This document shows, piece after piece, positions 21,823-30,135 of a stretch of 36,840 nt of DNA (position 1 is its first letter; every line of letters begins with the position of its first letter). The translations under genes were made by a program, and so were the position numbers. The notes under the pieces are model-generated. The model ran no database searches. It was not told the origin of the DNA and worked only from the letters and a program-made list of their open reading frames with translations. The DNA is from a virus: positions 1 to 36,840 of IMG/VR virus record IMGVR_UViG_3300022668_000022. The stretch is one strand, 5' to 3'.

Positions 21823-21852
21823 TTGACAGAATAGTATCATAACGTGTATAAT
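21823..21852 (+). promoter_or_regulatory. Rightward early promoter
   Basis: TTGACA (21823-21828), 18 bases, TATAAT (21847-21852), then AAAGGAG before the ATG at 21884. It probably drives the early operon. CTTGAC at 21822 and GTCAAG at 21855 make the region symmetric. Confidence 0.7.
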
Positions 21853-24000: not shown

Positions 24001-24192
24001 ATGCAAGACTTTAAAACAATCGAAATAGACGGCGAGTTCTTCCAAGATCCATGGGAGTGGTTGTTTGAGGACACATTACAGTTTGCAGTCGATAGGTTAC
24101 ATTATGCTATGCATGAATTTGGAAACGAATTATACAAAGTATTAGCTCCTCTCATGAAATCAGTTTCAAACGCTTTGACAACCGACAAGTGA
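24001..24192 (+). CDS. Hypothetical protein (63 aa)
   Basis: MQDFKTIEIDGEFFQDPWEW followed by LFEDTLQFAVDRLHYAMHEFGNELYKVLAPLMKSVSNAL, mostly helical. AAGGGG precedes the chosen ATG at 24001; an upstream in-frame start (23953) lies inside the nuclease gene. Its last codons contain the -35 box of the promoter for the structured RNA. No family recognised. Confidence 0.5.
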   Translation: MQDFKTIEIDGEFFQDPWEWLFEDTLQFAVDRLHYAMHEFGNELYKVLAPLMKSVSNALTTDK

Positions 24193-24203
24193 TGTGATAG
24201 AAT
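24175..24203 (+). promoter_or_regulatory. Promoter of the structured RNA
   Basis: TTGACA (24175-24180), 17 bases, TAGAAT (24198-24203), preceded by TG (extended -10). The transcript would begin near 24210, exactly where the stem-loops begin. Confidence 0.68.
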
Positions 24204-24209
24204 GAGTTA

Positions 24210-24340
24210 GTCAAGGATTGGTAACCCTTGCAATACTACGTATGTAGTATTACATTACGTGAAGAGCTATTGATAGCTAAAGTATGTGTAATGGCATACG
24301 ATCAGGACTTACCATCCTGGCTATCAGTAGCTCTTTTTTT
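24210..24340 (+). ncRNA. Structured non-coding RNA with intrinsic terminator, about 130 nt
   Basis: In order: hairpin CAAGG/CCTTG (24212-24216 with 24226-24230); hairpin AATACTAC/GTAGTATT (24232-24239 with 24244-24251, loop GTAT); then a 14-bp closing stem AGAGCTATTGATAG (24263-24276) with CTATCAGTAGCTCT (24321-24334), one U-G pair. This stem encloses hairpins GTATG/CATAC (24282-24286 with 24295-24299) and CAGGA/TCCTG (24303-24307 with 24315-24319). Seven Ts end the stem (24334-24340). Loop TGGTAA (24219-24224) is perfectly complementary to loop TTACCA (24309-24314), a possible kissing contact. It may be a free small RNA or a 5' attenuator of the GIY-YIG and replication genes. I do not recognise the class. 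Confidence 0.72.
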
Positions 24341-24350
24341 CGGAGTTTTT

Positions 24351-24827
24351 ATGTTCAATCTATTCGACTTATTGTTAATCAGGAAACCAATATATCAAAG
24401 GGTATTGTCAATGTACAGTAAGAATATTAAGGCATTTTGGAAGATGGCGCCAGAGGAAATGATTCTCGAATTCTGTGAGATTGAGGATCTTGAATTTGAC
24501 ATGGAAGGTGTTTATTCAATTTCTATGAATAGCAGGAAAGGATATAGTGAAAATATATATATTGGAAGAACAAATAGAGCTATAGGAATAAGGATAATAG
24601 AACACATGATGGAGGCTGTAGATTATTTCACAAACTATAAAGATAAAAAGTTTTCTAATGGCAATAAGATAATGGCTATATATGACTGCTTGAATAGTAA
24701 TGGGAAGTTAAAGGTGCGTATGATCTCGGCAGACCCAGAACAAGAATATGATATTATCAAAAGATATAAAATAAAAAGCGACAAAATAGATACCTTAACT
24801 TTATTGAATATAAAACTAGGAGACTGA
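24351..24827 (+). CDS. GIY-YIG nuclease-like protein (158 aa)
   Basis: From ATG 24351 (CGGAG upstream) the motif order is GVYSI at 53-57 (the GIY strand), IYIGRT at 69-74 (the YIG strand), then RxxEH at 81-85, which matches the GIY-YIG core in which Arg and His/Glu follow the YIG strand. The N-terminal 50 residues are a separate helical region. Starts further upstream lie within the structured RNA. It may be a homing or host-DNA-degrading nuclease. Its expression probably depends on read-through of the RNA's terminator. Confidence 0.65.
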   Translation: MFNLFDLLLIRKPIYQRVLSMYSKNIKAFWKMAPEEMILEFCEIEDLEFDMEGVYSISMNSRKGYSENIYIGRTNRAIGIRIIEHMMEAVDYFTNYKDKKFSNGNKIMAIYDCLNSNGKLKVRMISADPEQEYDIIKRYKIKSDKIDTLTLLNIKLGD

Positions 24828-24828
24828 T

Positions 24829-25503
24829 ATGCAATGGTTTAAACACATGAGTAACATGAGAAATGACCCTAAAATCAAAAGGCTTATCAGTAAGTATGGC
24901 ATAGAGGGGTATGGATTATACAGCCTTGTCATAGAGTCAATAGTAGATAACCTAACAACACAATCCCCAATGCCAGACCTACAAGAGACATGCGAAGATA
25001 TAGCAGATTTCTATAGAGGTGATACCGCAAAGATAAACGAGCAAATGTCTTTTATGGTTAATCAAGGATTGTTTGAAGTAGACGAGATCACAGGGCGTAT
25101 AATGTGCCATAAAATATATAAATTTCTGGAAGCAAGCCAAACAAGAAGCGCAGAGATAAGGGATATGATTAAAACATATAAAAACAACAAGGGATTAGTC
25201 GTTGCGTCAGGAATGTCTCAGACAGTACCAGACAATTGTGAAGAAGAGAAAAGAAGAGAAAAGAAGAGAATAGAAAAGAATACCTATAGTGAGTGTGTAA
25301 AACTTTCAGAAGAACAATATAAAAAGTTGATTGACAAGTTTGGTGAACATGACACAAAATTAAAGATAGATAATTTAAACAATTACATCATGAGTAAAGG
25401 AAAACAATATAAGAGCCATTATCACACTATCCTGGCTTGGAGTAAGAAGGATGTCGTGAAACAACCTACTATAAAACCATACGGAAAAAGTATTTTTGAT
25501 TAG
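24829..25503 (+). CDS. Replisome organiser, DUF4373/Lin1244-type
   Basis: The N terminus MQWFKHMSNMRNDPKIKRLISKYGIEGYGLYSLVIESIVDNL is the signature of the DUF4373 (Lin1244/Lin1753-like) winged-helix domain found in phage replication initiators. The C terminus (YKKLIDKFGEHDTKLKIDNLNNYIMSKGKQYKSHYHTILAWSKKD) is the domain common to such proteins that contacts the helicase or its loader. Between them is a Lys/Glu/Arg linker encoded by a decamer repeat. It lies just before the DnaB-type helicase. It probably binds the phage origin and recruits the helicase. Confidence 0.85.
   Translation: MQWFKHMSNMRNDPKIKRLISKYGIEGYGLYSLVIESIVDNLTTQSPMPDLQETCEDIADFYRGDTAKINEQMSFMVNQGLFEVDEITGRIMCHKIYKFLEASQTRSAEIRDMIKTYKNNKGLVVASGMSQTVPDNCEEEKRREKKRIEKNTYSECVKLSEEQYKKLIDKFGEHDTKLKIDNLNNYIMSKGKQYKSHYHTILAWSKKDVVKQPTIKPYGKSIFD
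25241..25270. repeat. Three exact decamer repeats in the replisome organiser gene; origin candidate
   Basis: AAGAAGAGAA occurs three times in direct succession (25241-25270), within a longer purine-only tract on the plus strand. Ten-base periodicity puts each copy on the same face of the helix. Many phages place the replication origin inside the initiator gene; this is the only iteron-like element seen in it. Confidence 0.4.
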
Positions 25504-25512
25504 GAGTGATTT

Positions 25513-26766
25513 ATGGGTATTGATAACGAGTATGCACTATTAGGCCATTGCCTGAATAACAGTAGAGTTGTAAGCCAACATTATCTACACGAAAAACTAT
25601 TTCAGAACAATTCTACTCGAAAGATTTACAGAGCTATAGTTAAGATAATGGATGTTGACGGAACGATACCTGATTTAGTTTCTCTGAGAGATGAAGATAT
25701 TCAGAAGGATGAATTATTAAAACTGTCAGAGCAAGGGTTTTCAGGAACGCCGAAATTCCATTATTCAAAGATTATTAACGATTACAAAATGTTGGGAATT
25801 ACAGCTATAAAAAATGTTGCTGAAAACTGTAATGATAAGCCTGATGAAGTGTTGCAGAAAATAAGCGAAATGATAAGCAAGATTACAAAAGTGAGCGATG
25901 TTGATAGCCTTGTTAATATCAAAGAGTTGCTTATTCCATACATGAACGAGATTGAAGAGCGATTTAAAAACAAAGGTCAATTACCAGGAATAACAACAGG
26001 ATTTGATAAGCTCGATTCTTACACGTTAGGATTACAGAAGAAACAAATGATTGTAGTTGGTGCGAGGCCGTCAGATGGCAAGACAGCGGTTATGTTAAAT
26101 ATGGCTTTGGCTTGTTCAAAGAAAGGGCACAAACCATGTATTCTAAATCTTGAATCAAATAATACTGAAATGATTACAAGGTTTATTAGTCAGATAGCTG
26201 CGGTTAATGGTCAAAAGATTTCTGCAGGAATGGTTACAGGTGATGAGTTTACAAAGATAGTTGACGCTTGCACAGACTTAAGCAGGAATGACATATTTAT
26301 GTATGACTCTCCAAATATCTCATTGACTGAATTGATAGCAAGAGCAAGGCAAGCGGTCAACATGTATAAGTGCGATATTATTTTTATCGATTATATACAG
26401 ATAATTAGGAACACTGGGAACTTCGGATCAAAAAGAGAGAAAGTAGAGGATGTTTCTATCAGATTAAAAGAGCTTGCCAGAGAGTTAGATATTCCAGTTG
26501 TGGTAATGGCACAGTTAAATAGAAACGCCGCAAACACAATGCCAACTGTATCAGAGTTTAAAGAATCAGGGCAGATTGAACAAGATGCAGACATAGCAAT
26601 ATTACTGTACCATGAACGAGACAAAGACAGCCAAGAAACATTTAAGCCAATAAAAAACAGTTGGTTTATTATAGATAAAAACAGGAACGGGGCTAAAGCA
26701 AATATTCCAGTTTTATTTAAAGGTGAATATGTAAAGTTCATGGAAAAAGAATATTACCATGAATAA
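25513..26766 (+). CDS. Replicative DNA helicase, DnaB family
   Basis: 417 residues. An N-terminal DnaB-type helical domain (NEYALLGHCLNNSRVVSQHYLHEKLF) precedes the RecA-like core. The core has ITTGFDKLDSYTLGLQKKQMIVVGARPSDGKTAVML with Walker A GARPSDGKT at about residue 182, Walker B DIIFIDYIQII near 288, and the later SFKESGQIEQDAD-like and KNRNGAKANIPV motifs. The length is a little under bacterial DnaB (about 450-470). It unwinds phage DNA 5' to 3' with the host polymerase, since no phage polymerase was found. Confidence 0.93.
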   Translation: MGIDNEYALLGHCLNNSRVVSQHYLHEKLFQNNSTRKIYRAIVKIMDVDGTIPDLVSLRDEDIQKDELLKLSEQGFSGTPKFHYSKIINDYKMLGITAIKNVAENCNDKPDEVLQKISEMISKITKVSDVDSLVNIKELLIPYMNEIEERFKNKGQLPGITTGFDKLDSYTLGLQKKQMIVVGARPSDGKTAVMLNMALACSKKGHKPCILNLESNNTEMITRFISQIAAVNGQKISAGMVTGDEFTKIVDACTDLSRNDIFMYDSPNISLTELIARARQAVNMYKCDIIFIDYIQIIRNTGNFGSKREKVEDVSIRLKELARELDIPVVVMAQLNRNAANTMPTVSEFKESGQIEQDADIAILLYHERDKDSQETFKPIKNSWFIIDKNRNGAKANIPVLFKGEYVKFMEKEYYHE

Positions 26767-30062: not shown

Positions 30063-30135
30063 GCCGGATTAGCTCAGTTGGAAGAGCATTTGTTTTGTAA
30101 TCAAATTGTCATAGGTTCAAATCCTATATTCGGCT
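30063..30135 (+). tRNA. tRNA-Thr (anticodon UGU)
   Basis: Acceptor GCCGGAT (30063-30069) pairs with ATTCGGC (30128-30134) with one G-T. D stem GCTC/GAGC, anticodon loop TTTGTAA with TGT at 34-36, T stem ATAGG/CCTAT with loop TTCAAAT. The anticodon stem has a T-T mismatch at its loop-closing pair. CCA is not encoded. It reads ACA, a codon used very often in the phage genes, so it probably supports late-protein synthesis. Confidence 0.85.

Follow-up and report, generated by a model that had tools for sequence, protein, structure and literature searches.

A doubly pseudoknotted RNA ending in an intrinsic terminator precedes replication genes in environmental phages

The window, that is, the whole stretch of DNA analysed here, comprises 36,840 bases of the IMG/VR virus record IMGVR_UViG_3300022668_000022. 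The element of interest (24175-24340) lies on its + strand, ahead of three genes of the same strand. Two of these could be assigned to replication: a replisome organiser (RepO; Lin1244_N; 24829-25503; PF14297 at 4e-10, PHROG replisome organizer at 1e-17) and a DnaB-like replicative helicase (25513-26766; PF03796 at 3e-69). Between the element and RepO sits a 158-aa ORF (24351-24827), which an earlier, sequence-only reading of this DNA had called a GIY-YIG gene. That name remains unconfirmed, since its sole support is the motif GVYSI...IYIGR; the ORF had no Pfam match even at an E-value of 10 and no PHROG or phage tblastn match, and its AlphaFold model was unusable (pLDDT 35). We thus refer to it as a possible GIY-YIG nuclease only. 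Further upstream of the element, a perfect sigma-70 promoter (12/12; 21823-21852) marks the start of the rightward early genes.

The element opens with a sigma-70 promoter with an extended -10 (24175-24203, + strand), made up of TTGACA (24175-24180), a 17-nt spacer and a TG-extended TAGAAT (24198-24203), i.e. 11 of 12 consensus matches plus the TG. It leads into a structured segment, as the sequence-only reading had proposed, whose predicted fold of -48.4 kcal/mol compares with -30.7 ± 3.3 for shuffled sequences (z = -5.4, with none of 200 shuffles as good). Hairpin H1 (24212-24230; CAAGG/CCTTG, 24212-24216/24226-24230), supported by sequence, fold and descriptor, exposes the 9-nt loop ATTGGTAAC. 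Within this loop, TGGTAA (24219-24224) is perfectly complementary to TTACCA (24309-24314) in the CTTACCA loop of the last hairpin, P5 (24303-24319; CAGGA/TCCTG). This pairing, hereafter PK1, is the kissing loop that had been noticed from the letters alone, at exactly these coordinates, and the equivalent pairing covaries across phages (see below). Of the two hairpins placed upstream of the closing stem in that reading, H1 is formed, while the second (24232-24251; AATACTAC GTAT GTAGTATT), an 8-bp palindrome in the sequence, can form but is optional: the minimum free energy (MFE) fold has an alternative pairing there. The closing stem P3, which encloses the hairpins P4 and P5, and its seven Ts (24334-24340) were likewise recognised correctly; however, the stem spans not 14 but 17 bp once G-U pairs are included (24261-24277/24320-24336). 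Its 3' arm together with the U-run (24320-24340) constitutes an intrinsic terminator, followed by a GGAG ribosome-binding site (24342-24345) 5 nt before the ATG at 24351.

A second pseudoknot, PK2, had been missed. The linker hexamer CATTAC (24253-24258), which ends 2 nt before the P3 5' arm (24261-24277), pairs exactly with GTAATG (24288-24293), the whole loop of hairpin P4 (24282-24299; GTATGT/GCATAC). The MFE fold of the window places CATTAC in a weak local hairpin, with which PK2 would therefore have to compete.

When the window DNA, the 158-aa gene and the helicase were used as direct queries, no close relatives were returned. Only an alignment of the replisome organiser (A1) yielded relatives, in the form of 80 viral loci. 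A first descriptor (a closing stem with a U-run, an upstream hairpin, and a complement of at least 6 nt to its loop inside the stem) was scanned over 169 loci and gave nine matches at a score of at least 36, versus one in randomised sequence; the ten top matches, including the window, all lay just upstream of replication genes. Alignments A3/A4 and a covariance model, R1, were then built from four related copies, and R1 detected further copies among the protein-selected loci. A DNA pattern brought up 76 stretches, 36 of which contained a copy according to R1. Members found by this pattern are not independent of its letters, but the protein-chosen sets are. A second model, R2 (23 sequences), was run on 90 loci chosen by their initiator protein only (80 viral contigs and 10 named phages). 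Eight of them matched at E < 1e-10, every match lying immediately ahead of the initiator gene or separated from it by one small ORF, as opposed to no match in 0.87 Mb of other phage DNA. The element is hence common without being universal, occurring at about a tenth of initiator-selected loci. Among terminase-selected loci there was a single copy (L025) and none elsewhere with R2. On the bacterial side, a DNA pattern scan of genomes produced chance matches only, and R2 found nothing in 369 genomes of one bacterial class (centred on a Pseudoalteromonas; strict filters), 40 of one order and a few more, so that no cultured host is known. In total, we obtained 35 non-identical copies, 31 of which were aligned with a covariance model; E-values from models built in this work are rough.

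The resulting family comprises RNAs of roughly 110-140 nt with two pseudoknots and a terminator hairpin at the end. Pairing is kept in 97.0% of the pair cells across the 31 members of the alignment, and two-sided changes occur in 27 of 35 pairs. The covariation score of 0.646 was matched in none of 500 shuffles, and versions of the alignment in which the pairing was slid scored 0.06-0.09. As the shuffles leave the relatedness among sequences in place, our argument rests on the slid controls, the spread over initiators and the descriptor null. Homologues, which the sequence-only reading had suggested seeking with a covariance model, thus exist and covary heavily; an absence of covariation, which would have spoken against its proposal, did not come true. 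Both pseudoknots take part in this. The H1 loop and the segment after P4 change together in PK1 (TTGGTC/GACCAA, TTGGCA/TGCCAA, TTGGCG/CGCCAA, TTGGAG/CTCCAA, TTGACG/CGTCAA), as do linker and P4 loop in PK2 (CTAGTA/TACTAG, TAGGTA/TACCTA, TCAGTA/TACTGA, CGGATA/TATCCG, TCAGCA/TGCTGA, CCAACA/TGTTGG). For PK2, 20 distinct linker/loop pairs make 113 Watson-Crick pairs, compared with a mean of 71 and a maximum of 92 after permutation. Besides, the family contains 59 G-U cells and not a single A-C cell, which identifies the + strand RNA as the selected molecule. Family P3 consists of 8 bp, a 2x2 internal loop and 7 bp, with no indel in 31 sequences.

The window copy itself remained below threshold with both R1 and R2, whereas L025, another divergent copy, was detected by covariance model at 5e-4. 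A joint mechanical descriptor (P3 at least 15, U-run, PK1 and PK2) was nevertheless met by the window, by L025, by the divergent L109 and by many compact copies. It returned 21 matches in 3.6 Mb of DNA, each at an element copy upstream of replication genes and the window among them, with no false match, and none in 11 Mb of Markov-randomised window DNA. The window also meets the architecture in full: promoter, H1, PK1 into P3, PK2 between linker and P4 loop, terminator, ribosome-binding site and replication genes. Judged from sequence, then, it is a divergent family member, tied to the others by architecture and joint descriptor and not by the covariance models. Both pseudoknots recur in the other divergent copies, too, namely in L109 (PK1 GTAACGA; PK2 AAAGCGAA/TTCGCTTT), L025 (PK1 TTGGCGG; PK2 AGGTAAT/ATTACCT) and L091 (PK1 TTGGAAC; a 6-bp PK2 match whose linker is set apart from P3 by an extra hairpin). 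A hairpin like the optional one of the window is present in the L091 fold and absent from the compact family. A reduced form (L364, 3250-3395; RepO 64%) has an H1 loop pairing inside the terminator stem (TTCCCCC/GGGGGAA), lacks P4 and is separated from RepO by a DNA-binding-type gene. In a close relative (L090; RepO 62% identical), the element is absent at the corresponding place.

In 25 of the 27 copies tested, the end of the -10 box is followed by H1 at a distance of 6-10 nt, and 52% of copies have a promoter score of at least 9, versus 3.4% of the background. The lack of a transcript start near 24210 had been named as a possible refutation; in its testable part this was not borne out, as a promoter stands just before H1 in nearly all copies. 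All 35 copies carry a U-run of 5-9 nt, and in 31 of 34 the next start codon, with its ribosome-binding site, follows 8-18 nt later, which leaves no room for another promoter. With the promoter before H1 and the U-run only ∼10 nt before the start codon, any transcription of the downstream genes has to pass through the element. Where a contig extends far enough, the downstream gene or its successor is almost always a replication initiator. These initiators belong to several types (Lin1244_N/DUF4373, DUF1376, MARIRTIKP-type, DnaD-like and others), and all ten downstream proteins tested matched replication initiation, primosomal or helicase-loader PHROGs. The RNA is not private to the nuclease gene: in other phages it can directly precede the initiator. 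HNH-like or GIY-YIG genes were also observed between RNA and initiator gene in L170, L190, L210 and L243, similar to the 158-aa ORF of the window, and the one in L210, in the position of that ORF, has a Pfam GIY-YIG match. It looks as if the spot after the RNA were a homing target into which nuclease genes are repeatedly inserted.

As for known RNA families, Rfam 15 at its gathering score recognised only tRNA in the window and in seven related loci, and at 24100-24450 there were only chance matches at E-values up to 10. The tRNA of the window is a tRNA-Thr (anticodon TGT; 30063-30135) in otherwise gene-poor surroundings. We found no description of such an RNA in the literature searched, the coverage of which was incomplete and did not include the supplementary tables of large RNA screens. 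Together with the covarying homologues, the missing Rfam match supports the earlier proposal of a possible new class of structured RNA lying between the promoter and the replication genes. We regard the RNA class as new; its presumed mode of action, by way of a terminator-bearing leader, is familiar. The 6S RNA/tR' leader of phage lambda likewise combines a strong promoter, a short RNA and a terminator just before phage genes that are controlled by read-through; however, these are late genes, control is exerted by the Q protein at the promoter, and a conserved double pseudoknot is lacking. SAM-II and similar riboswitches are compact pseudoknotted leaders joined to a regulatory element (expression platform), yet in the phage element we saw no invariant ligand-like pocket, most positions covary, and replication genes lie downstream. 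The STAXI motif resembles it in placing pseudoknots near DNA-handling genes, in that case for single-stranded DNA-binding proteins and topoisomerases, but consists of tandem repeats of one pseudoknot (PMC2864571) and gave no cmscan match here. A T-box leader sensing tRNA via UGG, in which an invariant UGGN bulge would pair with the tRNA acceptor end, was considered and rejected, given that one member (L127) has UGAC with a compensating GUCA and that the PK1 loop of L109 is devoid of UGG.

How might such an RNA act? At the level of aligned sequences, comparison of the copies establishes that the RNA would start at H1, that H1, P3, P4 and P5 form, that PK1 and PK2 pair, and that the U-run at the end of P3 is immediately followed by the next gene's ribosome-binding site. 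It is an inference that the RNA is transcribed in this form and that the terminator controls entry into the replication genes. Our leading interpretation, to which we grant about an even chance, is that the element is a cis-acting leader whose conditional terminator sets replication-gene expression; function and trigger are inferred in the absence of expression data. P3 would then serve as the conditional intrinsic terminator. H1, P4, P5, PK1 and PK2 could all fold before polymerase has reached the 3' arm of P3. The PK2 linker strand would abut the base of P3, where termination is decided, with its partner at the far end of P3, so that PK2 would require P4 to bend back along P3 or else would compete with lower P3, and either could influence closure of the terminator. 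By helping or hindering this closure, the pseudoknotted core may set the read-through of polymerase into the initiator and helicase genes. A strict exclusion of PK2 by P3 was considered as well but is not claimed here, because P4 could fold back along P3. The as yet unidentified trigger might be a protein of host or phage origin, a metabolite or factors of RNA polymerase. Feedback by the initiator protein is unlikely, as one and the same RNA precedes unrelated initiator families. A conserved antiterminator helix with nested pairing was not found, and in a truncated transcript the P3 5' arm was mostly unpaired (mean 0.56); a classical two-state attenuator is thus not seen. The fixed length of P3 would suit a rigid tertiary strut, and a stable free RNA too.

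The latter is the most serious competitor of the cis leader, albeit an unlikely one in our estimation: a trans-acting, discrete and nuclease-resistant RNA of 110-140 nt with a target in host or phage and with a gene that merely adjoins the replication genes. The discrete promoter-to-terminator unit, the compact fold with its fixed P3, the lack of a conserved antiterminator and an RNA form that stays constant while neighbouring genes change would all agree with this. What such an RNA gene would not need is a U-run ∼10 nt before a start codon in nearly all copies, followed by an initiator. Present data do not decide between a free small RNA and a terminator switch, and we favour the cis leader. 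The tight link to replication-initiation genes of unrelated families could also mean that the structured strand acts as DNA (a single-strand origin or primosome site) or as a replication primer and not as a regulatory RNA. However, the 59 G-U cells without any A-C, the promoter at a fixed distance and the U-run with its ribosome-binding site point to a transcript; a primer RNA is not excluded thereby, though we consider this whole line of explanation very improbable. Least credible of all, and already refuted for the family, is that the element is merely an ordinary terminator with fortuitous complementarity or else codes for protein. From the TTG at 24228 one frame does stay open through most of the window element, yet the full descriptor had no chance match in 11 Mb and both pseudoknots covary. 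Stops in all three frames were found in 29 of 35 copies, on which ground the element was rejected as protein-coding; a reading frame kept in homologues, another outcome that would have counted against the sequence-only reading, did not materialise.

Two further explanations borrow from known systems, and we deem both highly improbable, if marginally less so than the DNA or primer role. The RNA might bind and modify the transcribing polymerase on behalf of the replication operon, by processive antitermination or anti-pausing. In phage HK022, putL is likewise a folded nascent RNA directly after a phage promoter, but putRNA, which acts on RNA polymerase, measures only about 70 nt, adopts another fold of two stem-loops and lacks a terminator (PMC9378689), whereas the present RNA contains two pseudoknots and has a terminator as the final part of its fold. 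Alternatively, the element might be a plasmid-type replication-control leader, in which expression of the initiator depends on a pseudoknot and is under the control of an antisense RNA (ColIb-P9 or IncL/M type). The likeness in the UUGGCG loop is intriguing both in function and in loop chemistry (U-turn loops). To judge from the title of Asano et al. 1998, as listed in PMC10724649, the loop motif 5'-UUGGCG-3' belongs to the replication-control RNA of ColIb-P9 (IncI-alpha; repZ); it equals the PK1 loop of several family members, which also precede a replication initiator. IncL/M repA similarly requires a pseudoknot that is blocked by antisense RNA (PMC8125031), and in these plasmid leaders, as in the phage element, a hairpin loop pairs with a distant segment. 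The plasmids, however, rely on translational control via antisense RNA and a leader peptide, without a terminator fold or a second pseudoknot. In the phages, the pairing partner lies inside the terminator stem and there is no Rfam match. Nor was an excess of minus-strand (antisense) promoters seen downstream, weak as this test is, and a leader peptide ORF of the ColIb-P9 type is not met with, the element frames all being stopped in 29 of 35 copies.

Taking the cis leader as the preferred reading, we tentatively propose, at somewhat less than an even chance, that the element represents a novel class of regulatory RNA in phages: two pseudoknots surrounding an intrinsic terminator, possibly sensing a ligand or factor, would gate replication genes, and the RNA would move as a module between phages with unrelated initiators. 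Few structured phage RNAs are clearly linked to DNA replication. The present one, which Rfam 15 does not contain, occurs commonly in environmental phages and accompanies unrelated initiator proteins; it is therefore likely to respond to some general property of the host or of infection timing. Its covarying loops, PK1 and PK2, offer direct targets for mutants that break and compensate the pairing. Should it be a switch, phages would have in it a novel means of timing their replication, and it could help to find out what they sense.

Copies were also seen in GenBank records. In MW202520.1 (L372, 1874-1988), MW202462.1 and MW202544.1, hypothetical proteins are annotated across the element; these are probably spurious ORFs. 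Chlorobiaceae phage CV-1-33 (MT192033.1; L371, 1850-1980) displays a similar architecture before a DUF1376 initiator, with PK1 GTAGCT/AGCTAC and no clear PK2; including it would bring phages that infect green sulfur bacteria into the family.
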